A stretch of DNA of 64,000 bases, taken from contig NW_026570331.1 in the NCBI RefSeq assembly GCF_019649055.1, forward strand, positions 310,001-374,000, given 5' to 3'. The translations under genes and the position numbers were made by a program. Every line of letters starts with the position of its first letter. The first letter of the stretch is position 1. The notes under the pieces were generated by a model that made no database searches, was not told the origin of the DNA, and saw nothing but the letters and a program-made list of their open reading frames with translations. This document shows positions 1 through 24,570 of this stretch, one piece after another. Source of the DNA: Paramacrobiotus metropolitanus. Taxonomy: Eukaryota; Tardigrada; Eutardigrada; Parachela; Macrobiotidae.

Positions 1-333
1 AAAGTCGGTGATGCCGTGCGGATTGCGGTGCATAAAACAAAGGTGGAAAAAGGGTATACTTACCGTTTCAAAGAAGAAATCTTCTACATCCATCAGGTGA
101 TCCCGCATCGTATTCCGGTCTATCGTTTGAAGGATTACCAAGATGAAGTTATTAAAGGAAAGTTTTATGAGCATGAACTGTCACCAGTCTCGAATCCACA
201 GCATAAGGAACACGCAATTGATTTTATTGTTAAGCGGCGCGGAAAGAAAGCATTAGTCCGTTGGTTAGGTTACGGACCCGAACACGATTCTTGGGAACCA
301 CTATCATGTTTGAAGGAGCGCCTTTCTACATAA
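1..333 (+). CDS. Retroviral-type integrase, C-terminal part with chromodomain (partial)
   Basis: Open from the first base of the window to TAA at 331-333, so only the C-terminal 110 residues are seen. The first part (KVGDAVRIAVHK and following) looks like the SH3-like DNA-binding domain that follows the catalytic core in rve integrases. The last 40 residues are a chromodomain: AIDFIVKRRGKKALVRWLGY, then a DSWEP ending. Polinton integrases commonly end in a chromodomain, which is thought to bias insertion towards modified chromatin. The DDE catalytic residues lie to the left of the window. The penton-like gene starts 28 bases before this stop in another frame, which is typical of the tight packing here. 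Confidence 0.85.
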   Translation, partial: KVGDAVRIAVHKTKVEKGYTYRFKEEIFYIHQVIPHRIPVYRLKDYQDEVIKGKFYEHELSPVSNPQHKEHAIDFIVKRRGKKALVRWLGYGPEHDSWEPLSCLKERLST

Positions 334-1271
334 CCTTACCCAGTGATGTCGCCACAGAAGCGGCCAACACGCCCTCCAACTGGACTACCAAACTGAAGCA
401 TCCCATTACCTTGAACGGCAAATGGGAAATGGCCCTGGTGGAACTGCAGTATTTAAATTCTTTCTATACTCTACCTACCGAGCAAAAAATTCAACTGGAT
501 ATTGTCCGCGAATTTCGGGTTAAAAAAGAAGAAGACTTTATTGATAGCGTCAATTACGTTGTGCACCAAGAAATTTTGACGGTTCCTCCCGGAAATTATA
601 AGAATGCCGAGCTTTTACTGCAAACCGTCAACAACTTAGCTCCTACAATCGGACCGTACATGGTGGATGACGCTGTACATCAGGATAAAAGTGCTTTGCC
701 GGATAACAAAGCTTTCAACTTGCAATTTTTAACCTCAACAAACCACCGAGTGAAACTGCTTATTGGCAACGATCGAGTGTCAGTTACGTTTCCCCCTGGA
801 TCCGTTACCTTGCAAAAAATACTAGGGTTTGAACAAGCGGAATTTAAACCAGATGTACCCGCAGAAACTCACTCCAATGCACTGGGACCCTTTCCGTTTG
901 TTACCAAAACCAGTAGCATCAAGTACTTGTCATTCCTCAGTAAAGCTCCTCCACCTAAACTGACCACCTTCTTGTCGGAACGACCGGTGAACACCATGCT
1001 GGGGAACCAAAGCCTGTTTCTGTACAGTGATGTTGCAGACTACAGCCTGATTGGTGATACTGCCGCGCAGTTTTTGCGCGCTGTACCTATTAGAGGGGAG
1101 GTCAACCAAATTGTGGAAGCACGTTTCGACATTCCCCACTATGTTCCCGTATTACGCCAACATTTCGAAACTATTCATTTAACTATTGCCAACGACCTGG
1201 GTGACGACGCTAAATTTCAGACGGGAAAATCACTAGTAAAATTACATTTTCGACCACAACGCTTATACTGA
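306..1271 (+). CDS. Penton-like minor capsid protein
   Basis: 321 residues from ATG at 306; an upstream in-frame start at 261 is non-ATG and deep inside the integrase gene. The N-terminus, with FYITLPSD and then LKHPITLNGKWEMALVELQY, matches the pattern I associate with the single-jelly-roll penton protein of Polintons and adintoviruses, which forms the capsid vertices. The rest is beta-rich with no membrane segment and no zinc site. It sits between the integrase and a small basic protein, as in related elements. It overlaps the integrase by 28 bases and ends 2 bases before the next gene. The reading frame is intact. The assignment rests on position and the N-terminal motif; a structure prediction showing a single jelly roll would settle it. 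Confidence 0.7.
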   Translation: MFEGAPFYITLPSDVATEAANTPSNWTTKLKHPITLNGKWEMALVELQYLNSFYTLPTEQKIQLDIVREFRVKKEEDFIDSVNYVVHQEILTVPPGNYKNAELLLQTVNNLAPTIGPYMVDDAVHQDKSALPDNKAFNLQFLTSTNHRVKLLIGNDRVSVTFPPGSVTLQKILGFEQAEFKPDVPAETHSNALGPFPFVTKTSSIKYLSFLSKAPPPKLTTFLSERPVNTMLGNQSLFLYSDVADYSLIGDTAAQFLRAVPIRGEVNQIVEARFDIPHYVPVLRQHFETIHLTIANDLGDDAKFQTGKSLVKLHFRPQRLY

Positions 1272-1273
1272 AA

Positions 1274-1660
1274 ATGCCCCTCGTCGCCTATGTCCCAGAC
1301 CCGCGACGCTACGAAAACGTTTTCGTGAGCCAAACGGGAGGAAGTGCTCTCATTCGCTATCGTGGCACACTACAAAATGGATCCGGGTTCCCACAAATTT
1401 TGAAGAATTTATTTGCCAAAATTACCAACTTTGCCAAACCGATACTGCGTAGAGCAGCGCCGCATGCTAAAGCTGCTTTGGAAGCCGCCACCCCTCACTT
1501 GCAAGATGCGGCAACCGGGGTTATTAAAGAAGCAGGAGCGGCGATTGGTAAACGCCTAGTTTCGCAAGAAGGAGAAGGCGTTCGGAAGAAACAACGTGTT
1601 AAACGTAAAGTACATCGCATTAAACGTATTCCGCCAACCAGCATTCCGGACTTTTTCTAA
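1274..1660 (+). CDS. Small basic virion protein (adenovirus pX/pVI-like)
   Basis: 128 residues. The middle (about residues 38-95) is an alanine-rich amphipathic region containing glycine and proline breaks, and the C-terminus is strongly basic (VRKKQRVKRKVHRIKR, residues about 103-118) before a PDFF end. Adintoviruses and Polintons carry a protein like this, compared to adenovirus core protein pX or to the membrane-lytic pVI. It probably packages DNA or helps entry and is probably cut by the element's protease. There are 2 bases between the penton-like stop and this ATG, and 3 bases between its stop and the capsid ATG. The frame is intact. Sequence similarity in this family is weak, so size, composition and position carry the call. 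Confidence 0.65.
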   Translation: MPLVAYVPDPRRYENVFVSQTGGSALIRYRGTLQNGSGFPQILKNLFAKITNFAKPILRRAAPHAKAALEAATPHLQDAATGVIKEAGAAIGKRLVSQEGEGVRKKQRVKRKVHRIKRIPPTSIPDFF

Positions 1661-1663
1661 ACA

Positions 1664-3001
1664 ATGGCAATGCTCATGATGGAACATTCCGAACCGGCCA
1701 TGCAGCTGGAAAATCAGCTGTTTGCCTTGCCGGCTACATTGACCGACCGCTGGCGTACCGAACACGAGAAACTGAACCCTACAACTATTTTGACCGACAA
1801 TGGATCCGCTGGTGACATTAATTTCTTTATACCACCTAGTACGGCTGGTCTGCTCAGTTTGGCAGATATGATATTGGAGTTGGAAGTGGGCATCAAAGTG
1901 CGTAAAACTACCGGTGACTGGGAATTGGTAACCGCGGATGATGGGGTGGCACCGGTCAATAATTTCTTGCACTCGCTCTTCTCATCCTGTCATGTAACGG
2001 TAGCCAATCGACTGATCTCGGATGCCGCCACGTTCTATCCGTACCGAGCATACTTTGAGTCATTGCTATCGCATAGCAAAGAGGCTCAAAGTAGCCAGTT
2101 GACTTCGGCTGCATTCTATTTGGACACGCCCGCCAAACATAACGATGAGACGTCTAATCAAGGAGAAAAGAGCCGTAAGGCTTTATTTCAAACCGGACAA
2201 TATGTTCAACTTTCTGGAAGACTGTTTTCGGACTTGTTTGACCAAAGCAAACCACTGTGCACAGGGGTTCCTGTGAACATCCGTCTGGTAGTCAGCCGCC
2301 CTGAATTTGCCCTGCGTGTGTGGGATAAAGATGCCACGAAAACGTTTAAGCCCTTCATTCGCAATGCTCGGTTGTCTATCCGACGCTACATTCCCTCACC
2401 GGATTTTCTGACAGCTGTTGCTGGTGAATTGTTAAAGAAAACCGTCAAATATCATGTTGAGCGGATAGTTATGCGCGTGTCGGACATTCCGCAAAAGACG
2501 CAAAGCACCGTGGTCAGCAATCTACAGATTGGGCAAATACCCAAAGTCGTGTTCGTTGGATTTGTCGATAGCGAAGATTTTCACGGATCCATCAAAAAGA
2601 ATCCGTTTAACTTTCAACATTTCAACATTACACAACTTAGTGTGGAAGTGGATGGTCAGAGCTTCCCTAGCAAACCCTATATAAGTGATTTTGAACACAA
2701 CTTATCCTTGGAGTGCTACGATGGTTTGCTCGATACTCTGGGATACCGACCGAGTTTGCAAGGCGGACTACCGTTCAACCGCACCGAATATAATCAAGGA
2801 TATACCATATTTGGTTTTGACCTTACACCAGGACATACTGGCCGCGGACCTTTGACCTTGATAAAACAAGGAAATCTGAGTGTATCAGTTTCCTTTGCTA
2901 AACCATTGACGACAACAATCATGATGGTGTGCATGCTGATTTATGACAGCATCATCGAAATTAATCAACATCGCCAGTTGATTGCGGATTTTTCAACATG
3001 A
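1664..3001 (+). CDS. Major capsid protein (double jelly-roll type)
   Basis: 445 residues from ATG at 1664. It resembles the widespread animal proteins of the F54H12.2 type, which are Polinton major capsid proteins. Visible landmarks are an N-terminal block of short hydrophobic stretches (LENQLFALPATLTDRW), INFFIPPS, then SHVTVANRLI-type and GRLFSDLF segments, and a hydrophobic C-terminus (TTTIMMVCMLIYD). The length fits hexon-like double-jelly-roll subunits of this group. Trimers would form the icosahedral shell. The frame is open throughout, in contrast to the polymerase. The stop codon overlaps the protease start (ATGA at 2998-3001), suggesting coupled or multicistronic expression or tight selection on length. 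Confidence 0.85.
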   Translation: MAMLMMEHSEPAMQLENQLFALPATLTDRWRTEHEKLNPTTILTDNGSAGDINFFIPPSTAGLLSLADMILELEVGIKVRKTTGDWELVTADDGVAPVNNFLHSLFSSCHVTVANRLISDAATFYPYRAYFESLLSHSKEAQSSQLTSAAFYLDTPAKHNDETSNQGEKSRKALFQTGQYVQLSGRLFSDLFDQSKPLCTGVPVNIRLVVSRPEFALRVWDKDATKTFKPFIRNARLSIRRYIPSPDFLTAVAGELLKKTVKYHVERIVMRVSDIPQKTQSTVVSNLQIGQIPKVVFVGFVDSEDFHGSIKKNPFNFQHFNITQLSVEVDGQSFPSKPYISDFEHNLSLECYDGLLDTLGYRPSLQGGLPFNRTEYNQGYTIFGFDLTPGHTGRGPLTLIKQGNLSVSVSFAKPLTTTIMMVCMLIYDSIIEINQHRQLIADFST

Positions 3002-3510
3002 ACACGGAGCAAATTCACCACTGTCTGCAGGGAAATCCTGTTACCACCCAGCTGTTCCGCGGTGTGTTTGCCAGTGACCGAGTTCCGCCATGTTTAGCCC
3101 CGTACCCTGGAGCATGTGTAGTTAACACGGACCCCTCTGACCAAAATGGTGCACACTGGATTGCTTTGCTACAAACCCAAGCGGGAATCTTGGAAGTGTT
3201 TGATTCGTATGGTAAAGCGTTGGAAACGTATTCTCAGCACTTCTCTATGCTTGCTCAGAATAATACTATTGTCTGTCAAGACGAACAGTTTCAGTCCGAA
3301 TATAGTACCGTGTGTGGTCAATATTGCTTATTTTTTGTTTTGAGACGCGCTAGCGGCGAATCTTTCACTAATATTGTACATTTATTTACCGATAATCGAA
3401 CAAGCAACGACAAGATGGTGTGTCAGTATGTAAATTCTTTTTTTGATATCAATACAGCACTAGTTGACGGATCTTTTCTCCGTCAGATATGTCAACGATT
3501 AATGAAATGA
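2998..3510 (+). CDS. Adenain-like cysteine protease (maturation protease)
   Basis: 170 residues. The adenain/Ulp1 catalytic set is visible: His53 in GAHWIALL, Asp69 in EVFDSYG, Gln99 for the oxyanion hole, and Cys106 in TVCGQYC, in the right order and spacing. In adenoviruses this C5-family enzyme cleaves capsid and core precursor proteins inside the immature virion; the same role is inferred here, with the small basic protein as a likely substrate. The start ATG overlaps the capsid stop by ATGA. The length is slightly below that of adenovirus protease. All catalytic residues are intact, so the morphogenesis block of the element looks undamaged. Confidence 0.85.
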   Translation: MNTEQIHHCLQGNPVTTQLFRGVFASDRVPPCLAPYPGACVVNTDPSDQNGAHWIALLQTQAGILEVFDSYGKALETYSQHFSMLAQNNTIVCQDEQFQSEYSTVCGQYCLFFVLRRASGESFTNIVHLFTDNRTSNDKMVCQYVNSFFDINTALVDGSFLRQICQRLMK

Positions 3511-3604: not shown

Positions 3605-4444
3605 TTAAACTTGGTTCAGAGAGCAGTTTACTTGCATACGGATTTGATTTTCATGTGTATCCAAATACTTCACCACATCCAAACTTAAAGCTTGCTTAAA
3701 GCTCAGTTCTTCAAAACCAAACAAAATGCCATGCACAAAACGAGCATCCAACAGACGTTGCACAGCATCTTTCCATTCCGTATCCGTTAACACGTCCCGG
3801 AAATCAGGGCATCTTTCATGAACTAGTTTCACCATAGCATCAATAATAGCGTCGCACAACTTCTCATGACAAAGACCTTTTTTGTCCGCATCCACATCCT
3901 CAACGATTTCGTCCACACTGACAATATGTTTGAAGAGAGTGAAATCCCGTATGAGTTCTTTCAACGCTTCGTAGCACTTCTCGTTCAATGAAATCCCGTT
4001 TCTCGTGGGCATCAAATCACCTTCCTGAGACCGCTGATAGCGGCGAAAGCTGGCCACGTTAGGACGGCTCCAGCTGAAGTACACCCCTCGGTCCAGTAAG
4101 AATAAAGGAGGTAAATTTCCATTGGAATGATCCAGATCGGCTTTTCCCGTCAGCAGTAACGATACCAAGCGCATGAATCCTCTTTTGGTAAGGCTTATCG
4201 TTTTCGCCCACGTCTGCTTCCATTTCCCGGGCGGTCCTTCCTTCCATTCACCAATAAAAATTCGAGTTTCTTCCCACTGATAATCGACATGCACAAATTT
4301 CTCGTTGCCCAGACGATACACAGGACGACCGTTCTCTGTGAAGGCTAAACGAGGATGAGTCTTCTCGACACTGCACTTAGTCTTGTTGACTAGTGGCATT
4401 TTAGGCTTCGAGTCTGAACGGCGGCGTTTTAGAGATGGTTCCAT
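3605..4444 (-). CDS. Protein with two PC4 (transcription coactivator p15)-like units
   Basis: 279 residues from ATG at 4444; the frame is open further upstream, but that part reads across the palindromic intergenic region. The N-terminus has a basic nuclear-localisation-like stretch (LKRRRSDSKPK, residues 5-15). Residues about 41-100 and 114-170 each look like a PC4/SUB1 single-stranded-DNA-binding unit. The second ends GDLMPTRNGISLNEKCYEAL (142-161), the typical loop, glycine, isoleucine-serine-leucine and helix pattern. The first has GKWKQTWAKTISL (73-85) in the same place. PC4 assists RNA polymerase II initiation and binds melted DNA. The remaining 110 residues are helical and acidic, unknown to me. 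It is divergent from the nuclease/TBP pair. The family call is by eye; the tandem duplication is inferred. Confidence 0.65.
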   Translation of the reverse strand: MEPSLKRRRSDSKPKMPLVNKTKCSVEKTHPRLAFTENGRPVYRLGNEKFVHVDYQWEETRIFIGEWKEGPPGKWKQTWAKTISLTKRGFMRLVSLLLTGKADLDHSNGNLPPLFLLDRGVYFSWSRPNVASFRRYQRSQEGDLMPTRNGISLNEKCYEALKELIRDFTLFKHIVSVDEIVEDVDADKKGLCHEKLCDAIIDAMVKLVHERCPDFRDVLTDTEWKDAVQRLLDARFVHGILFGFEELSFKQALSLDVVKYLDTHENQIRMQVNCSLNQV

Positions 4445-4620
4445 TTTTGTCAGAACTGAACTCAAATGAAGTGTATGTTGAGCGCACGCAAGTTGTAAAA
4501 CAAATGTTTGAAGGTCAACTGTGGTACATGGTGCCAGGTAAAGTACCTGGCACCAGGTACCATAAACCAACGCTGTTGCCAAGTGATAAACGAGTTGTGT
4601 ATTTCAGTCTAGTCTTGACC
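4445..4620. promoter_or_regulatory. Bidirectional intergenic region with a perfect hairpin
   Basis: This 176-base stretch separates the divergent PC4-like and nuclease/TBP genes, so promoters for both must lie in or near it. It contains TGGTGCCAGGTA (4529-4540), the triplet AAG, and its exact reverse complement TACCTGGCACCA (4544-4555), followed by a further CAGGTACC. An operator, a transcription-factor site or an RNA hairpin in the leader of either gene are all possible. A 13-base piece, TGGCACCAGGTAC, recurs near 10090. No clear TATA box was picked out. Confidence 0.5.
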
Positions 4621-5124
4621 ATGGCTCTGCCATGTGTTTTAGATGCTGATTGGTTTATAATTGAAAAGGTACCATATATCAAACAGCTGGCCTTCTCGTG
4701 CCCAAAAAAACATGACAGTGGGCAGTACACCTTCAGCTTACCACGATCAGCCGGTAAACACGCTCGCGAGTTGCAGAAACAGGCCAAGCATTCCCATGGG
4801 CTTCTCTGGAGCACCTTTGGTGATTATCGACACAATCAAGTGACGGTTGCCTTGGAAGACATGTTTAACCGTATTGGCCGTCCTAGTAAGCTAACTTTCT
4901 ATGCTAAGGGTTTGGACAAGTGCCGTTTACTGGAGCGTTATGTGCCCCAAGTGGTCAATCTTGAGGAACTAGGTTGCCCCGTCTATCACCGTCTAACAGA
5001 TGTGCCCCAAACAACACTGCGCAAAGCTATTCGGTTCGGTTTGTGGTTCTACTGCCATGCCAAAAATCATGAATGTCGTTGCCGTTGCGGATTTAAACAC
5101 TATCCTCAATCTGAAGGAGATTGA
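4621..5124 (+). CDS. DEDD-exonuclease-like protein of the Polinton
   Basis: 167 residues from ATG at 4621; the frame is open back to 4435, but that part covers the palindromic intergenic region. The layout resembles small RNase H-fold 3'-5' exonuclease-like proteins found near mobile elements in arthropods: an N-terminal DADWFIIEK strand, HGLLWSTFGDY in the middle, FYAKGLDKCRLLE (a KG-x-x-K helix), then VVNLEELGCPVYHRL. The C-terminus is Cys/His-rich (CHAKNHECRCRC), possibly a metal site. Not all acidic DEDD residues are obvious, so activity is uncertain. The last 68 bases overlap the TBP-like gene in another frame. It could act in genome end processing or repair. It is an open, intact frame. 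Confidence 0.4.
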   Translation: MALPCVLDADWFIIEKVPYIKQLAFSCPKKHDSGQYTFSLPRSAGKHARELQKQAKHSHGLLWSTFGDYRHNQVTVALEDMFNRIGRPSKLTFYAKGLDKCRLLERYVPQVVNLEELGCPVYHRLTDVPQTTLRKAIRFGLWFYCHAKNHECRCRCGFKHYPQSEGD

Positions 5125-5584
5125 AAAGAAAGTACCGATGGCGCAGTATATTCCCCGCAAATTTTCCGGCTTACTCCTTCGTATTCTCTCTCCCTACAAA
5201 GCACATTGCCAACTATATTCCAATGGAAAAATCACGGTCAATGGAGCTCGTTCGGAATCTGCTGCCAGAGAATTGGTCGACAAGTTTACCAGCATTCTTC
5301 AATCAATTGGGTACCGTTGTATCGTTTCAGGATTTCGAATTGTTAATATTGTTGTCACTCATGATTTTGGTGCGCGTATACATATTGAGAAATTCAGCCA
5401 ACATTACAAGTTGGAATATACTCCTGAATTGTTTAGTGGTTTGCGTATAAAATTGCCTTGGTTTACGGCTGTGCTCTTCCCATCGGGGAAGTGCAATTTT
5501 TTGGGATTGAAAGAAATGCATGACATACAAATATCAGTAAATTTTGTTGGTCGAATGATACAGCAGTTTCCTGCTACTCAATAA
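5057..5584 (+). CDS. TATA-binding protein (TBP) homologue encoded by the Polinton
   Basis: 175 residues from ATG at 5057, almost exactly the length of the conserved TBP core. The two pseudo-repeats are clear. Repeat 1 runs from KIMNVVAVADLN (3-14) through YIPRKFSGLLLRI (31-43) and SNGKITVNGAR (55-65); repeat 2 from FRIVNIV (93-99) through YTPELFSGLRIKL (121-133) and PSGKCNFLGLK (142-152), about 90 residues apart as in TBP. Of the four DNA-intercalating phenylalanines of cellular TBP, three positions are Phe (F36, F126, F141) and one is Tyr (Y54). TBP bends promoter DNA and nucleates the pre-initiation complex. It starts inside the nuclease-like gene, suggesting a shared transcript. An ATG at 5000 is possible but would add residues before the first repeat. 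Confidence 0.88.
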   Translation: MPKIMNVVAVADLNTILNLKEIEKKVPMAQYIPRKFSGLLLRILSPYKAHCQLYSNGKITVNGARSESAARELVDKFTSILQSIGYRCIVSGFRIVNIVVTHDFGARIHIEKFSQHYKLEYTPELFSGLRIKLPWFTAVLFPSGKCNFLGLKEMHDIQISVNFVGRMIQQFPATQ

Positions 5585-5586: not shown

Positions 5587-8500
5587 CTATTCAACGGTAT
5601 ATCCGTATGGAACAGTATTCCAGTCTTGCGTAATGCGCCGCTTATCATACGTCACTTGCAGACGCTTAGTTACATCACTATTGCATAGAATAAGCTGAGA
5701 CTTGATGCGTTTAATAACATCATCATAGTGCACATCAATACAACCAGACTTGTGCAGAATATTCATCATGGACTCCATGTTAACTTTCTCTTTAACCCGA
5801 TTATTGATGGTGAATCCTTTGATTTTGACTACCGAATGTCCATCGTTTGTCGTGTAGGCATAGGTCTTGGCGCCCAAGCTGACGAATTGCGTAATGTGTT
5901 GTCCAGGTTTTAGTTCATCGGTTAAATCGCCCAAAAATCGGCCAGTAGGAGGGTCAGGCCATCCCGGTTTCGACACAAAGAAAATGGAATCTTCAGAGCA
6001 AATAAAATAAAAATAATTGCCGTTAAAACATTGTGTTACAGTTAAATACCTGTGTCGAAATACAAAAGGCGCTCTTGAGCCATATCCATAAACTGGTATA
6101 GATGCAGTCGTGCCCAACATGTGGTGAACCTAATGCAAAAAAAGTCTTAAATTCTGCATGCTGAATAAAGTTTTTACAAAACTTACGCGGCCAGGACAAC
6201 ATTGGTGTTCGGATTCTGCTCGATAAATCCATCTTCTTTGGTGTATGTGATCTGCACGACGTTGTCATCAAAAAGATCCCACGAATGCACATGGTGTTTG
6301 CCGGAAAATAACATTTCATAAAATGTTTTGGGGTCATGAATGTACATGGTATTCAGTTTGTTATCCTGCATTCCCAGTCGGCCCCAAAAACTGTTGAGGC
6401 ATAGTTTGGCTAAAGCACGTAGTCCGGGATTTTCTTTGACCTTATCATAATCCAACTTGACCCCTTCCCGTTCTTCAAAATCAGCAATGTATTTTCGTTT
6501 TTCATTTTCCGCGGTAACATCTGATGGCCATCCACTGGCTTCCGTCTTGATTTTTAAAAAGCGGTCGATATATTCCTTGAAAAGGTGATCATCAAACGTT
6601 TCGTAATGCCACACTTCGTACATCTTCGTGACGGTATATCCCCGATCCATAGCAGCATGTATCTCTGGTGTGCACCACGTTCCCGTCAGTTCCCTTTCCG
6701 AATCCGTGTGGTCACATTTCTTGCTGTTCTGTTCTTTGACACATGTTGCACATAACGGGAAAGTCAGCTTGCCGTTGCAACGGTAAGGTAAAATAGGTAG
6801 CCACAAATCTCCCGGTGGTAGCACTGTGCAGTGGACTAAACCAAAATATTCCCGAACGTTTTGGAAGCTCTTGGTTAAAATAATAGGATGCCCTAACGGA
6901 TACCGGCGGTTTTTGTTGACAAACGGGTATTCGCTGTTGACATCGAAATACTTGATCTTTTCATCGGCAGCCACCGTATGCAACAGTCGCACGGCATTTG
7001 TCCGGCCACCATAGAAAGCGTTCCGAGGGTTTAACGGTTCGGTAATCTTTATATCGTTAATGAACTTGCGCATTTCGGAATCAATGCGAAGGTCTGCGTC
7101 AAAGTCATGTTCCCAAACAGTGGTTACTGGGTGACCCAATGAGCGTAAGTACTGTTCACGGTCCATCGTCTCTTTGTAGATGTCACGCATCGGTAGGTTT
7201 CGAAACGGATGCACTGTCTCCGGGTCCATACATGTAGGGCAGCCATGGTACCAACATCCATAAAACTCGTAAATGTGACCAGTGTCCTCCTGGTATCCAT
7301 CCACGTAATAAGGACCGATTTTCTGTTCGGTGCCGGAGACCACAGATTGAATAACGCAATTTTCTTCGTTTTCCATCCATGAAATCCATTTCATAGCCTT
7401 GACCGATTGCAAGCGATTGCGGGCAAACCGTTGTTGCGGAACCAGACCGATCTGATTTGCTTTCAGAATGAAGGAGCGCCAGTACAAGTTGCACAGTCCA
7501 GCGATTGTTAGAGCAGAGGTGAAAGGACAAAGTCAGTTGCTGATTTCCATGAACAGTTTGCGAAACTGTTGGCAACAGGTCCGTAAGACAGTCACGTCAT
7601 TTTCGCAGTAGGCGACAAATTCCTTACGAAAATCAAAAAGACCGCTTTTGGCTTTGACATCGGCATCGTACCATTCTTTGAAAGAGGCTTGCGCTTTCTT
7701 GTCCATTGTTCGGAACCCATATTCATCCATGCTGGGATACGGCGCAACACGGTCCCAATTTTCGCGACGATTAAATTTATGAGGGAAAGTTCCTTTGCTG
7801 ATGTCCGGTAATCCGAATGTCGCGGGCCATTTGGCAAGGCTTTGTGGGTTGTAATTTATGCTGTCACGAAAGTGAATATCGTAACCCGGGACATCCAGTT
7901 GCAAAATCTTTCCACCGTTCATGATAACTTTAGGGGTCACACCATTTTTTAAAAGCCACTGTAGTATAAAATATCCATCAAACGCTTTAAAATTGTGCGC
8001 GATGATGTAATGCCCTTTGTGATGTTCGCTAATCAAAAATTCGCACAGTGGGTCCGTTATGCATTTTTCTAATGGTTCGTCAGTAGAAGGAAAAGTCCAC
8101 TGAGTTCCTGTATCATCTTGCACGACGGCTAAATTCGGAACCAACTGGCCATCATCTTGGATGTAGGTCTCGAAATCAAAGTAAAGAAACTTAGCATTTT
8201 CATTCTTTTCACGCTCTTCCGGGGTAACAGTGTGCGGTTTCATGAAACACTGATGGTTTTCCGGTAATACATGAATGTTGCAATTCTTACAGTATATTTC
8301 TCCGCACTGGTGGTTGTTTGATCCTTTCCGGTTCCGCATTGACACCACACACTGGCATTCCAAACAAACTTTGACTGTGCTGCACAACGATTTCCCTCGA
8401 CTTTTTCTAGGAACCGTTTTGTGGCGATCGAAACATCCTTGCCCATAAAATATACGATTACAGTCAGTGCAGTGTAGAGGATTTGTTGTATCCCGCTCGC

Positions 8501-9914
8501 AATTCGTTCGCAAGCATTGGTGACAAATATTGCTGCACCGATGAGTGCGACGATCCGAATAACCTTTGCCGCACTGGTAACACCAATACGATCTTTTAAA
8601 GAAAGCCGGTAGCGACAACAGTAAATCGTAATGGTGACCATAAAGCAACAATACTATATGACGCTCCTTGAACTTCCCATTGTAAACAATGCTGCTTCCT
8701 TGGTCTAAACTGACCACGATAATCTGATATTCTGGGAGCACAGCTTCAAACAACAGGATATCCATGAGATCGAAGGATTTCTCTGTCAGCTTCGCTCGTT
8801 TTATGAGCTTTTTGGCTTCATTAGTTAGCATTTTTTTGCCCCGATGAAGTCGGCGAATCAGCTTCTTGTCCTTGTCAGCATACGCTTTGCCAAACACTAA
8901 TGCTCTAGCCATACAGATATTATCGGTGTTCTTTATCTGCACTACAGACTTCATCTTTTTCAATTTCCGATATAACAATTGCGGAACCAACCGCCGACAC
9001 CCCCCATTTGGCAACTCCGTGTATTGTACAGATATTTCAAAAGTGTCGTCAAGAACAAAATTGTCGTTTGACTGCAGTACCTTTTCAACTTCGTCCATCC
9101 ATCGTCTGACATCCAGTTGCGAGCGTTGAATAGGTGGCGTCCAAATTGGTCGCTCTAACGAATGGGAATCAATCCGCAGGCGAACTAAATCTTTGTCCCC
9201 GACATCACGTAAAACTGACTGAAGGATATGTTCCAAAATAAAGGTAAGTACTACTGGAATTTCCACAAAGGGGACATGATCCAGTTGGGAAACCTACAAC
9301 GGTACCTCAAGTGATGAATGGAATCGGGCTACTGTAGTTGCAACATTATTAATCAAATCATTTCGTAAAGCCTTGTGGTCGTTCTTTTGTCTTCAAGATT
9401 GTAGGTCCCTGGTTACAATCAAGGCTGCGTAATAATTATGTTATAAAAGCAAACCAAAAAATTATGAAATTTTAAAATTGAAAATAACTTTCAAACAGCA
9501 TTTCGAAGTCTTTGTTATTAGCATCTGAAAACTGTAGTGGCTATAGTGGTAATATAATAATAAGCAATAATGATAATATTTATAAGAATAATAAGTTTGC
9601 AAAAAACTTACTTTTACGGTAAAACACTTGAAATGGAGCTTGTATTTTCTGGAAAACTTTTCGCCTTTGCTCTCGATAGTAACGTGATCATCGATGTCGA
9701 ACGGTTGGTTTTGAGTTTCAAGGTCTTGCTGCACCGGCTTCTGTCCACCTGTTTGATTGGTAACATTTTTGGTGTCGTCAATCCGGTCCGCCAATGCCGG
9801 TGAGGTGTTACAGTCCGATAATTCAGCTGAAGACAATGTGTCTTCACACACCCAATCGTCCAAACTTGCTAAAAGTGCACAATCATCTAGGTCGTGTTGG
9901 GATAACTGGTCCAT
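5587..9914 (-). pseudogene. Protein-primed family B DNA polymerase with three introns and one in-frame stop
   Basis: Exon 1 starts at ATG 9914 (acidic, disordered MDQLSQHDLDDCAL) and ends at 9612. GT/AG introns are inferred at 9611-9294, 6186-6130 (57 bases) and 6049-5991 (59 bases), all keeping frame. Motifs visible: Exo I DFET near 8175, Exo II AHNFKAFDGYF near 7990, Exo III YCENDV near 7600, a Cys/His cluster at about 8280-8600, polymerase motif A (DVNSEYP, near 6940), motif B (LCLNSFWGRLG, near 6390) and motif C, whose two aspartates are split by the last intron. The enzyme would replicate the element from a protein primer. A TGA at 7533-7535 interrupts the frame between the exonuclease and polymerase domains; the reading frame resumes directly after it. 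So this copy is probably dead unless the stop is an assembly error or is read through. Confidence 0.85.
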
Positions 9915-9950: not shown

Positions 9951-10391
9951 GGCAAACAGTACATTAAAAAGCGTTAGAAATAGCGCTGTGTACGAAATCT
10001 ACCACAGCGTTTAATGAAAACGATAGGCTGGAACTAATAAGGTTTTCATAATCCAGAAGGTAACTGCATGGTTGTGAGCACGACCGGTACTTGGCACCAG
10101 GTACGCGTTACCATGGTAACGGTACCTGTACCATGTACCTCGGCCATGTACCATGGTACATGGTACATTCAATCACGGCATACTGTGTTGTGGTTAGTAT
10201 ACAAATCAAATTTACAAAATTATTTCCATTTATCCACATATCCGTGCAGATGCATATGCACAGGTGGTGCGTATACTTGTGCGCATGTGTGCAGATGCTC
10301 ATACACACTTGCGCATCCGTGTAAATGCAAATGCACATGCGCAGAATTGGCGTGAGTTAAACAAACGTACTACTGTGATGAATCCTTGCAG
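9951..10391. repeat. Palindromic GGTACC-rich and CA/TG-rich short repeats
   Basis: No gene seen. Positions 10084-10170 are a run of overlapping palindromes (GTTACCATGGTAAC, GTACCATGGTAC and repeated ACCATG/GGTAC pieces), including TGGCACCAGGTAC shared with the Polinton intergenic hairpin. Positions 10240-10375 are degenerate repeats of roughly TGCGCATGTGTGCAGATGC type. This block lies exactly where the missing 5' half of the neighbouring BTB domain should be and may include the right end of the Polinton. Confidence 0.5.
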
Positions 10392-20850: not shown

Positions 20851-22077
20851 ATGACGCCATCCTTGCCCTCAACCACCAACACCACCGCCGCCGCGAGTAC
20901 AGCGAAAGAAAAGGACGCCTCCGGCCTGATTAATTTTGAGCCTTCCAAAATGACCTGGCGCTGGTGGCAATTCCAGTATAGGAATTACGTCAAACTACAC
21001 AAAATCACGGATGGCGAAGAACAGAAATGTCTACTTTTCGATTCCCTCGGCGTCGAGGCTGGAGAAATGCTTTTCTCTATGTGTTTGCCGGCGAACCCGG
21101 ACGATTTCACCACAGCGCAAATTGTAGACAAACTTGAACACGCTTTCGTGAAGAAAACCAACGCTGCCACCGAGTGGGCCAATTATTTTAAGCTCAAACA
21201 AGAACAGGGTGAATCCCTGTTGGATTATTCCAATAAGCTCCGCCGCAAAGCCTTTCCGTGTGGTTTTCCAGCCGATGTTCTTGAAAAGAACATGTCGGCG
21301 ACCTTTCTTAATGGTCTCGCCAGCGACGCTGCACGGGAGCATCTCCAGTCAAAAACGTACTCCACGTTGGAGGAAGCGCTGGATATTGCGGAGAAGTACG
21401 AGCTCCGGCGTAGCACCAGAAAGTGTCAAACCACTGTCGATGTGGCGCGCGTGGAAAGCGGGAAGCGAAACCCAGCGGGTAATGGCTACAGAAGGCGTGA
21501 CGGCGCTCGTGGCGGACAACGAGGCCGTGACCTTGGTGGTGCACGCAAGCCTGCTGGCGCAGAAGGTGGCAAGGGTGCAGCCTGTGACGGCTGCGGATCC
21601 ACGCAGCACGCACGAAGCGACTGCTGGGCGAAAGATGCGGAGTGCAGGAAGTGCAAAAAGCGCGGCCCTATAGCGAAGGTCTGCCGGAGCGCACAGAGCT
21701 CCAGCGGCCGACAGGGACGCGATGGGCGCCGAACGTTTTTGGTGGAGGAAGAGTTCGACGTGCTCTCTGTCGATGCCACCAGCGGGCGCGCCATTCACGT
21801 ACCGGTGAAAATAAATGGTGTACCGGTGTCACCAGTGCTGGATACTGGCTCCGGCGTCACCATTGTCGCCTCGGAAACCTGGAGTTCGATCGGCTCTCCA
21901 AAATTATCACCGTACACCAATCCACTGAAGAGTTTTACTGGCCATACCTTAAAGGTCATCGGCACAGCGATGGTGGAAGTGGCCCACGCGAGAACGCGGA
22001 AGATGCTGCCGGTGATTGTGGTAGCAACGGGTGGAAATGTACTTGGACGAGATGAAGAAGAACCTGGTTTTATATAA
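20851..22077 (+). CDS. LTR-retrotransposon gag with zinc knuckle and retropepsin
   Basis: 408 residues. The N-terminal half is a gag capsid-like domain (WRWWQFQYRNYVKL, then YFKLKQEQGESLLDYSNKLR, typical of Gypsy-type gag). A zinc knuckle follows (CDGCGSTQHARSDC, C-x2-C-x4-H-x4-C), then a second one lacking its His (CRKCKKRGPIAKVC). The C-terminus is a retropepsin with the catalytic LDTGSG at about 21838-21855 and GNVLGRDE near the end. The frame is open from ATG at 20851. No LTR-type reverse transcriptase, RNase H or integrase follows. Instead an unrelated RT element begins at the end of the protease. So this is an orphan gag-pro, either domesticated, non-autonomous or cut by the downstream insertion. 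Confidence 0.8.
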   Translation: MTPSLPSTTNTTAAASTAKEKDASGLINFEPSKMTWRWWQFQYRNYVKLHKITDGEEQKCLLFDSLGVEAGEMLFSMCLPANPDDFTTAQIVDKLEHAFVKKTNAATEWANYFKLKQEQGESLLDYSNKLRRKAFPCGFPADVLEKNMSATFLNGLASDAAREHLQSKTYSTLEEALDIAEKYELRRSTRKCQTTVDVARVESGKRNPAGNGYRRRDGARGGQRGRDLGGARKPAGAEGGKGAACDGCGSTQHARSDCWAKDAECRKCKKRGPIAKVCRSAQSSSGRQGRDGRRTFLVEEEFDVLSVDATSGRAIHVPVKINGVPVSPVLDTGSGVTIVASETWSSIGSPKLSPYTNPLKSFTGHTLKVIGTAMVEVAHARTRKMLPVIVVATGGNVLGRDEEEPGFI

Positions 22078-22079
22078 TC

Positions 22080-24570
22080 GCGATGTGGAGCTCCCTTCTT
22101 CGCAGCCCCCGAGAGCCAAGAAGAAAAGAAGCTCCGACGAAGACATGGCCCGCCGCATAGGCCAGAAGATCGACGCCGGATCTGTCTCCGGTGTGATGCG
22201 TATCGTGATGTCCACGGACTCTATCGCGGATATCACTCCGGATACTCTGAAAGTGCTCAGAAACCCCGAATGCTCCCCTCCGCTCGTGACTCCTCCCAAG
22301 TTCGACACGCCTTCAGCGCCACCTGTAAATGCAGCGAATGTTTTTGCAGCTATCCACAGTTTCCCACGAGGATCTGCAGCAGGTCCGGATAGTTTGCGGT
22401 CACAGCACTTACTAGACATTGTTGGCGGAAAAATGGACGACCATAGCGGGTAGTTTTGCGAATCACTTGCGTCCGTCCTAAACCTCGTTCTAGACGGAAA
22501 AGTGCCTACCGATATTCGTCCTAAATTTTTCGGAGGAAAACTGCTGGCCCTTCGAAAAAAAGACGGTGGTCTGCGCCCGATAGCGGTAGGAATAACCTTA
22601 CACCGTGTGATAGCTAAAATCATATGCACTAAAGTTGCGGAGCGTGCGACCGCCCTACTATCGCCTGTGCACCTTGGTTTCAATGTGCGTGGTGGAGCTC
22701 AGGCCATAGTCCACGGTACCAGATGCTTTCTTGACGCGTCGCCGGACAGCATAAAAGCCGTTAGTTATCAAAGTGAATTTTAGGAATGCATTTAATACAG
22801 TTCCTCGCGAAGTGGTTCTTAATGCTGTGAAACTGCATTTCCAGGAATACTATTCCTTTTTCCTGTCAACTTACGGCCACCATTCGTCACTGTTTCTCGA
22901 CGACTACATTATGTCGTCAGAATCTGGAGTACAGCAGGGAGATCCACTGGGTCCATTACTGTTTTGTATAGCCCTGCAAGCTGTAATTGCCACCCTCACT
23001 ACCGAGCTAAATGCTTGGTATCTCGACGATGGGACTATGGGCGGCCTTCCTTGAGCGTTTCGGAAAATTTTACACGGGTCATCGAAGGCGCCAAAGCAAT
23101 CGGCCTGGATATAAACGTCGGAAAATGTGAACTGTATGTTACAGGCGGACCTGAAAGTATCCAGCAAGAAGCAGTGAACAGCTTTCTCATATGGCATCCG
23201 CAGCTGCGTGTCATGTCAAGCGTTAACCTGACACTTCTTGGAGCACCAGTGTTAGACGATGCAATTGCCCCGATGTTTACTGAAAAAGCAACGACACTTT
23301 TTTCGGTTTGTGAGCGAATGCAGCCTCTCCCGTGACACCAAGCTTGTACCTCCTGAGACATTTCCTCGGCGCGCCTAAAATTATTTACATGCTGAGATGC
23401 TGCAACGCGTGGAGGTATGCGCAACAGCTGTACCAGATAGACGAAACGGTACGCTCCTGTTTCCATCAGCTGTGCAACGTCCAAACCAATCATGATGATT
23501 ACTCTAGTTGGCGGCAAGCCAGTCTCCCGGTCAGCAGAGGAGGTACCGGAATACGTCGTTCGAAGGAACTAGCTCTTCCCGCCTTTTTGGCTTGGATTCA
23601 CTCCGTATCTGACTTGGCATCCCGTGTGTTACCCGCACGGCCGGCTGTGAACGTCACGGAGGCTCTAAACCTGTGGAAGCTAAACGCTCGTCAAGTAGAA
23701 CTGCCCGAATTTAACTACCTTGCTGGATGTGTACTGCGACGATGAAATTAATAAAGCGCGCTTACTTGCCAAGTCACGGCCGGAAGCAGGCATTTGGCTG
23801 AACGCACTGCCCTCTGCTCACATTGGGAATTTACTCGACGATGACACGCTGAAGATTTCGGTTGGCCTCCGTCTTGGCGCAGTTATCTGTAAGCCAAATG
23901 ACTGTGTGAAGTGTCACAAGCTACTTGACAAATATGCACACCACGGCCTATTCTGCACATTCTCAGCCGGCAGGCTCCCATGCCATGGTGGGCTCAATAA
24001 CATTGTATGCCGCGCCCTCGTTTCAGCCGGCTTCCCCTCTAAACTGGAACCGCGCGGCACCTCCCACACGAGCGAGACGGCTGTACTACGTTTGCTTGGC
24101 AGAGGGGCATGTGCCTGGCGTGGGATGTTACTTGTGTCGACACGGTCGCTGCTTCCCATATCACGTCCACATCCTTGACTGCCGGATCGGCCGCGTTACA
24201 AGCAGAAGAAAGGAAGACTAATTTGTACTCGTTTCTGATTGGGCGATACATTTTCGCAGATATTGCCTTCGAAACAATGGGCCCATGGGGACCGTCGGCA
24301 ACGGCCATTATCAAGGAAATCGGGAAACGTTTATATAATCAAACCTGAGAGGCTCGCTCCCATGAGTTTCTCCGGCAGCGACTGTCCTTGGAGATTCAGC
24401 GGGGAAACGTGGCTTCGGTTCCAGGAACAATGGATGGAGTTGAAAAGTTTATTGAACTCTTTCTGTTGTGATAATTAAGCTTTTTTCGTTGTTTGGTTAA
24501 CTTGTAAATGTTCATTGATTTCTACTCTGCCGTCGTTTATCAATAAAATGCGCACAATATAGCTAGAAGA
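22080..24570 (+). pseudogene. Decayed reverse-transcriptase element (non-LTR-like, YLDD type)
   Basis: Pieces in changing frames, in order: DEDMARRIGQKIDAGSVSGV; FPRGSAAGPDSLRSQHLLDI (RT motif 1 region); KKDGGLRPIAVG; RNAFNTVPREVVLNAV; GVQQGDPLGPLLF (near 22930); AWYLDDGTMGG (catalytic DD, near 23015); KCELYVTGG; a thumb-like region to 23745; and a C-terminal domain with CLAWDVTCVDTVAASH (near 24110), YIFADIAFETMGPWGPSA, and RLSLEIQRGNVASV. At least five frame breaks exist. The C-terminal domain may be a PD-(D/E)XK restriction-like endonuclease as in R2/NeSL elements; that is inference. The 3' end has AATAAA at 24542. A truncated sister copy lies at 28411. Confidence 0.75.

Follow-up and report, generated by a model that had tools for sequence, protein, structure and literature searches.

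The window, a stretch of 64,000 nucleotides from a contig of the tardigrade Paramacrobiotus metropolitanus, opens inside a mobile element whose right end lies at window position 10374. The whole element spans G000:C111:305963-320374 (14.4 kb), and its left part lies in the adjoining piece L013. Local alignment showed that the element ends carry inverted repeats, 328 and 294 bases long, whose outer ends read AGTAGTACG. The features of the element within the window are as follows.

1..333, + strand: integrase with chromodomain, C-terminal end (Pfam Chromo 25.7 bits, cut-off 25.1)
309..1271, + strand: likely penton protein (gene order; no match to Pfam, searched with ORF 261-1271, or to NCBIfam)
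1274..1660, + strand: small basic pX/core-like protein (between penton and MCP; same place in TBP-centred loci)
1664..3001, + strand: likely double jelly-roll major capsid protein, MCP (size and gene order)
2998..3510, + strand: adenovirus-type C5 protease (Pfam Peptidase_C5 22.2 bits, cut-off 21.3)
3605..4444, - strand: PC4-like protein (p15 coactivator), divergently oriented to the ORF at 4621
4621..5124, + strand: conserved ORF, weakly nuclease-like, overlapping the TBP start by 68 bases
5057..5584, + strand: TBP homologue, 175 aa plus stop (Pfam TBP, AlphaFold2, Foldseek)
5587..6120, - strand: DNA polymerase B, last exon-like piece (adjoins the second large piece in 11/19 loci)
6183..7487, - strand: DNA polymerase B, second large piece (Pfam DNA_pol_B_2 98.9 bits)
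7533..9266, - strand: DNA polymerase B, first large piece (Pfam DNA_pol_B_2 74.2 bits)
10081..10374, no strand: right terminal inverted repeat (TIR), outer end AGTAGTACG; partner at L013:4964-5291 (G000:C111:305963-306290)
10375..10380, no strand: GTGATG target-site duplication, repeated immediately outside the left end

The integrase, polymerase, protease, packaging ATPase, TIRs and 6-bp target duplication identify the element as a Polinton. The ATPase gene lies in L013, left of the window (Pfam Pox_A32 24.8 bits, cut-off 22.8), as does the remainder of the integrase, whose open frame runs from L013:8207 onward. In the copy L031, the integrase matched both rve (56.5 bits) and Chromo (38.9 bits). 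With DNA_pol_B_2 matched by both large pieces, the polymerase is presumably of the protein-primed kind. Its pieces are probably exons, and the gap of 45-50 bases after the first large piece, which recurs in several copies, is likely an intron. A short ORF upstream of the polymerase (9462-9914, - strand), with a similar start seen by eye in L024, is probably the first exon.

The capsid gene labels are likely ones, drawn from order and size. The MCP was assigned in this way, and the pX/core label of the 1274..1660 product is likewise presumed. Searches with the MCP of Pfam, NCBIfam and the PDB gave no match. The Polinton gene order given in the available part of PMC4028283 matches the placement of the penton and MCP genes.

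When the element is removed, the flanks of the insertion site continue as a frame that appeared BTB-like by eye. Beyond the element, kelch-like ORFs were seen by eye at about 12-13.6 kb, and positions 20851-24200 hold gag-like and reverse-transcriptase-like ORF pieces that look like a retroelement, also by eye.

The TBP gene and its neighbours

A sequence-only reading had taken ORF 5057-5584 for a complete TBP core of two repeats, and this was confirmed. Pfam TBP (PF00352) matched the 175-residue product at 115.7 bits (8.4e-34; cut-off 22.9) in two stretches that correspond to both repeats; NCBIfam TBP models also matched, below their cut-offs. When the sequence was searched against the PDB, the top two chains were ECU04_1440 and TFIID-1, which we take to be from Encephalitozoon, followed by further TBPs down to archaeal ones. 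AlphaFold2 (alignment of 20 sequences) predicted a saddle with a mean pLDDT of 94.3 and a pTM of 0.84. Foldseek with this model returned 44 PDB chains at E < 0.001, all of them TBP or a TBP complex or fusion, including 3eik, named TATA-box-binding protein. The TM-score to solved TBPs and TBP-DNA complexes was about 0.9 (maximum 0.90). Three of the four intercalating Phe residues are kept and the second is Tyr (F197, Y214, F288 and F305), just as had been read from the letters.

The gene had been placed between a nuclease-like ORF and the polymerase, two bases from the latter. Two bases do separate the end of the TBP ORF from the last polymerase piece (5587-6120, - strand), and the placement stands with two additions: the first 68 bases of the TBP ORF are shared with the upstream ORF, and the polymerase frame is broken up. 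The model of the overlapping ORF (AlphaFold2, four sequences) had a pLDDT of 77. Its best Foldseek match was TREX1 (E 3e-3, TM 0.45), with nothing below 1e-3, so that the predicted structure may weakly resemble 3'-5' exonucleases of the RNase H fold. No Pfam family reached its cut-off with the longer ORF 4435-5124; a match to Rpb6 at E 0.1 was dismissed as chance.

For the PC4-like gene, we picked the start ATG at 4444 by eye inside ORF 3605-4582. The window copy scored 22.7 bits, below the Pfam cut-off of 25, while its orthologues in L022 and L023 scored 28.5 and 34.1 bits; the PC4-like protein matched PC4 in the PDB at E 0.0066. A type III secretion match of the same ORF (15.5 bits, cut-off 670) was dismissed as chance. 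The PC4 profile matched 10 places in the genome. Nine sit 1.2-1.8 kb from a TBP locus, all above 25 bits, and the tenth (81 bits), on a contig where no TBP had been found at that point, is likely the host gene. The PC4-like gene adjoins TBP in one clade, and PC4 was not found in the other Polinton architecture.

No TFIIB gene was found near a Polinton TBP by Pfam, which would let a very divergent TFIIB escape; the three TFIIB loci of the genome are on contigs without a Polinton TBP.

TBP genes in other Polintons and their relatives

The genome was searched with three TBP queries and with the Pfam model. Leaving aside the host TBP and a TLP-like gene, this yielded at least 228 TBP loci, of which at least 137 are near full length without a stop; these figures are lower bounds. 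TBP lies within 12 kb of 80 of the 91 MCP loci, where about 2% would be expected by chance. Adding the divergent TBPs linked 5 more, which gave 85/91. The six MCP loci without a TBP nearby are C148, C149, C219, C342, C7:1642091 and C8:1306777. The 91 merged loci represent 103 matches from the 95 candidates scored out of 558, and their number is thus at least 91. Coordinates for all linkage counts (TBP, MCP, PC4 and TFIIB loci) were transcribed by hand.

Counted from the other side, an MCP match was within 12 kb for 79 of 151 TBP loci and for 55 of the 89 near-full-length ones. These fractions are low in part because the MCP search scored 95/558 candidates, and for most TBP loci without an MCP match the linkage was judged by that search alone. 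L026, L028, L029 and L030 were listed without an MCP, yet tblastn showed that they contain Polinton genes.

We examined 19 TBP-centred loci (L014-L032). When searched by tblastn with the window proteins, 18 of them had at least two further Polinton genes. In 12 loci (L014-L025) the genes detected follow the order of the window element, and the arrangement differs in L026-L031. Within about 10 kb of TBP, the polymerase was present in 11 loci, the overlapping ORF in 14 and the PC4-like gene in 12. L032 gave no gene by tblastn; its packaging ATPase shares 44% identity with the one in the window element, and an integrase match there fell below the cut-off. These results show that a TBP homologue linked to Polinton genes is carried by Polintons throughout the genome. 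The TBP thus recurs in place in other copies. The claim that the gene belongs to the element and is not a neighbouring host gene is borne out by the TIRs and GTGATG on both sides, by synteny across copies and by the tree described below.

L022 and L023 hold TBP, PC4-like, protease and MCP genes with no PolB match in the 10 kb examined. The L023 TBP has equally scoring copies at C81, C110, C134 and C185.

To find relatives, we searched with the window protein, which gave 19 homologues, and with a TBP alignment, which gave 293; the sequences used for the trees and residue counts were chosen among the best 120 of these 293. A quick tree of 92 rows placed all 19 Polinton TBPs in one set of 60 together with 41 metagenome proteins (SH-aLRT 98). 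In a careful tree of 51 rows, one branch parted 29 Polinton-type rows from 22 others with a support of 99/94. The 22 others were 11 cellular TBPs including the host TBP, archaeal TBPs and further metagenome groups; the host TBP at C4 grouped with the cellular TBPs. The Polinton TBPs therefore stand apart from the host TBP. Because the tree is unrooted with long branches, the rows on one side of a branch do not necessarily make up a clade, and the tree does not fix how deep the split lies. The rows compared are Polinton, cellular, archaeal and metagenome sequences.

The near-duplicates L014 and L020 and the copy L029, with an internal stop, were left out of alignment A1 and the trees. The trees and residue counts exclude P0041, which equals L031 over 170 residues, and the partial sequences P0006, P0039 and P0040. 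HOST_TLP, a long branch, was included in the quick tree and absent from the careful tree.

P0070, a metagenome TBP on a 356-kb contig of giant-virus size, fell outside the Polinton set. Other metagenome members sit on contigs of 27.6 kb (P0002), 20 kb (P0011), 19 kb (P0019) and 16 kb (P0038). P0041 is a Paramacrobiotus metropolitanus protein named TATA-box-binding protein-like, and its first 170 residues are identical to the L031 TBP. Single Polinton TBP gene models are thus seen to be in databases already under a TBP-like name, with no Polinton origin noted. Scans of IMG/VR viral contigs with P0001, alignment A1, the window MCP and P0019 confirmed no locus. No match was obtained when P0001 was searched by tblastn against phage records, nor when three proteins were searched against PHROGs.

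The host TBP lies at L036:2257-2739 (- strand, G000:C4). By eye, the first part of its core is in another frame, near an A run, which may reflect either a slip in sequencing or the edge of an intron. The genome has a second TBP gene of cellular appearance, highly divergent, at G000:C66:349292 (L035:960-1661, - strand; Pfam TBP 84.9 bits); we take it to be a likely TBP-like factor (TLP/TRF2).

Residues, selection and a candidate role

Residues were counted in 19 genome and 41 metagenome sequences with human numbering, and we assigned the roles of the positions (DNA-kinking Phe, TFIIB and TFIIA contacts) from known TBP. N167 was numbered on P0052, because the host TBP row consists of a single open frame that lacks the first part of the core. 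In the genome and metagenome sets respectively, F197 is kept in 18/19 and 41/41, and F288 and F305 in 19/19 and 41/41. Position 214, Phe in TBP, is Tyr in 15/19 and 34/41, including the window. N257 is present in 19/19 and 41/41 and N167 in 17/19 and 37/41. Four other groove positions differ: T222 is Asn in 18/19 and 38/41, T313 is Leu in 19/19 and 40/41, V220 is Thr in 15/19 and 35/41, and V311 is Asn in 15/19 and 35/41. As judged from the alignment, the DNA-kinking aromatics and core Asn are mostly kept, and the four other groove residues appear rewritten.

Among the TFIIB contacts, E286 is kept in 17/19 and 40/41 (57/60), L287 in 13/19 and 34/41, and E284 in only 7/19 and 25/41. The window TBP keeps E286 and L287 and has Thr in place of E284. 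On the TFIIA side, N189 was found in 0/60, E191 in 4/60 and R205 in 0/60. The TFIIA face thus seems lost and the TFIIB face partly kept. The TFIIA face is eukaryote-specific and does not define archaeal or viral TBPs, according to the available part of PMC7221094, so that membership of the wider TBP family still stands.

To estimate selection, we calculated dN/dS for 11 pairs with our own Nei-Gojobori script. Six of the 8 pairs with finite dS gave 0.06-0.16, and two young pairs gave 0.29 and 0.64. dS was saturated in 3/11 pairs, and saturated or high in most pairs other than the two young ones. These values point to purifying selection on the Polinton TBP. The HMM match, predicted fold, element ends, synteny and substitution pattern support a Polinton-borne TBP homologue.

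We consider it fairly probable that the Polinton TBP is the element's own promoter-recognition factor, which would recognise a non-standard TATA-like site and hand it to host TFIIB and RNA polymerase II. The retained kinking aromatics and core Asn suggest that it would bind DNA. Since T222N and T313L are nearly fixed and V220T and V311N occur in most copies, the sequence read may differ from the standard TATA. Use of host TFIIB, followed by RNA polymerase II, is the simplest guess, because E286 is kept and no TFIIB gene was found nearby. With N189, E191 and R205 changed, the protein would escape TFIIA and the other host factors of that face. In one clade, the PC4-like neighbour may help as a coactivator. 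The weakest step is the choice of targets, which by analogy with herpesviruses might be the late genes of the element (capsid and protease).

Promoter motifs were examined in the 150 bases before the TBP-overlapping ORF at 11 of 14 loci, the near-duplicates L014, L020 and L027 being left out. TATAWAW was found in 2 loci (P 0.21), TATAWA in 2 (P 0.48), a wider set in 4 (P 0.08) and TATT-type words in 4 (P 0.33). There was no clear enrichment of TATA-like words with these four patterns in the 11 stretches. The capsid genes overlap or stand a few bases apart, and this tight packing makes a late promoter motif unreadable there.

The sequence-only reading had left the choice between recruiting host polymerase and blocking host TBP. 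A decoy or inhibitor would sit on host TATA boxes or titrate TFIIB without serving the element's promoters, and loss of the TFIIA and regulator face is what a dead-end complex could show. However, a decoy for host TATA should retain the base-reading residues, and the replacements at T222 and T313 (nearly fixed) and at V220 and V311 (in most) suggest a site other than host TATA; the PC4-like coactivator gene adjoining TBP in one clade also speaks against it. We consider such a decoy unlikely, and from the residues we infer that recruitment via host TFIIB would be favoured over blocking.

Slightly less likely still is a DNA bender that serves replication or packaging at the terminal repeats or origin, outside transcription. 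The TBP saddle is an efficient DNA bender and the gene adjoins the polymerase and the weakly nuclease-like ORF, but the TFIIB contact E286, kept in 57/60, would be superfluous for replication, and TBP is retained in L022 and L023, where PolB was not found in the piece examined. We give little weight to the idea that TBP is kept to use the promoters of another virus, in the manner of virophages, which use the late promoter signals of their giant-virus host. Related TBPs do occur in metagenomes whose hosts are not known; a second virus turned up nowhere in the analysis, which included no dedicated search for one. TBP is a universal host gene and mobile elements often carry off host genes, but a host gene or recent host-TBP copy trapped beside the element has a negligible probability and was rejected, together with a chance neighbour, since the gene lies between the TIRs, TBP recurs by 85/91 capsid-gene loci, the window TBP shares just 32% of 133 aligned residues with the host TBP core, and the host TBP groups with cellular TBPs.

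If the Polinton TBP does act as a promoter-recognition factor, it would likely let the elements switch on their own genes via borrowed host machinery. A broader reading, which we offer tentatively, is that an entire lineage of animal Polintons may have its own core-promoter code, with a rewritten minor-groove reader that is free of TFIIA-face regulators, works with host TFIIB and RNA polymerase II and, in one clade, uses the PC4 of the element. If this is true, no smaller element with a private means of promoter recognition of this sort is known to us, and metagenome members of the TBP family would mark relatives elsewhere.

Comparison with known systems

Few proteins of archaea and eukaryotes are as conserved as TBP. 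Compared with cellular TBP, the Polinton protein shares the two-repeat core, predicted saddle, kinking aromatics, core Asn and PELF stirrup. In contrast, it mostly has Tyr at 214, carries T222N, T313L, V220T and V311N, lacks N189, R205 and mostly E191, and falls on the other side of a supported branch. The window TBP has no N-terminal extension, unlike cellular TBP.

The literature examined places TBP in giant viruses, mirusviruses and, distantly, herpesviruses. The suggestion that TBP had not been described in Polintons agrees with it: we found no description of TBP or PC4 in Polintons there, most subscription journals and the adintovirus paper PMC8502044 lying outside its scope. None was present in the available parts of PMC10675990, PMC10132985, PMC11071308, PMC10120064, PMC4028283 and PMC7221094. 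PMC7786948 and PMC2612703 contain words for both Polinton/Maverick and TATA-binding protein; by title and the start of the abstract, neither reports a TBP in a Polinton. In the accessible part of PMC10675990, the TBP-carrying elements of Cymbomonas are assigned to a putative mirusvirus type.

Giant viruses and mirusviruses share with these Polintons a TBP borne by a dsDNA virus and a regulator face that is not conserved. From the parts of the sources at hand, almost all giant viruses with TBP also encode TFIIB and their N-lobe regulator face is not conserved (PMC7221094), and mirusviruses carry TBP in 59% of genomes, which reach 431.5 kb or slightly more (PMC10132985). The giant-virus TBP thus mostly comes with a viral TFIIB, whereas the Polintons have no recognisable TFIIB nearby. 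The TBP-like proteins of beta/gamma-herpesviruses (BcRF1, ORF24) read the TATT box of late promoters, according to the available part of PMC4893493. They resemble the Polinton protein as a viral TBP-like factor at a non-canonical box, a parallel that would hold by analogy. They are distant from TBP and act in a viral complex, whereas the Polinton protein is a compact and clear TBP homologue.

With an animal element of 14 kb that has a TBP of its own, the size boundary for non-cellular TBP moves far down from large DNA viruses. The timing of capsid-gene expression in Polintons, long regarded as transposons, becomes a testable question. More than a hundred intact-looking TBP genes in one genome could reveal an alternative to the TATA code that occurs in nature, and members of the Polinton TBP family can flag related elements in metagenomes.

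In common with the Polinton/Maverick (adintovirus) elements, those described here have the chromodomain integrase, PolB, C5 protease, A32-type ATPase, likely capsid genes, TIRs and the 6-bp duplication. They differ in the TBP and PC4-like genes, and in BIR-domain genes in two loci. BIR in Polintons was looked for in one preprint and is not described in the part of it at hand. The two BIR-domain ORFs lie within Polintons at L023:4007-4609 (- strand, 76.6 bits) and L031:3145-3681 (+ strand, 31.7 bits), and the L023 frame overlaps the end of the TBP gene.
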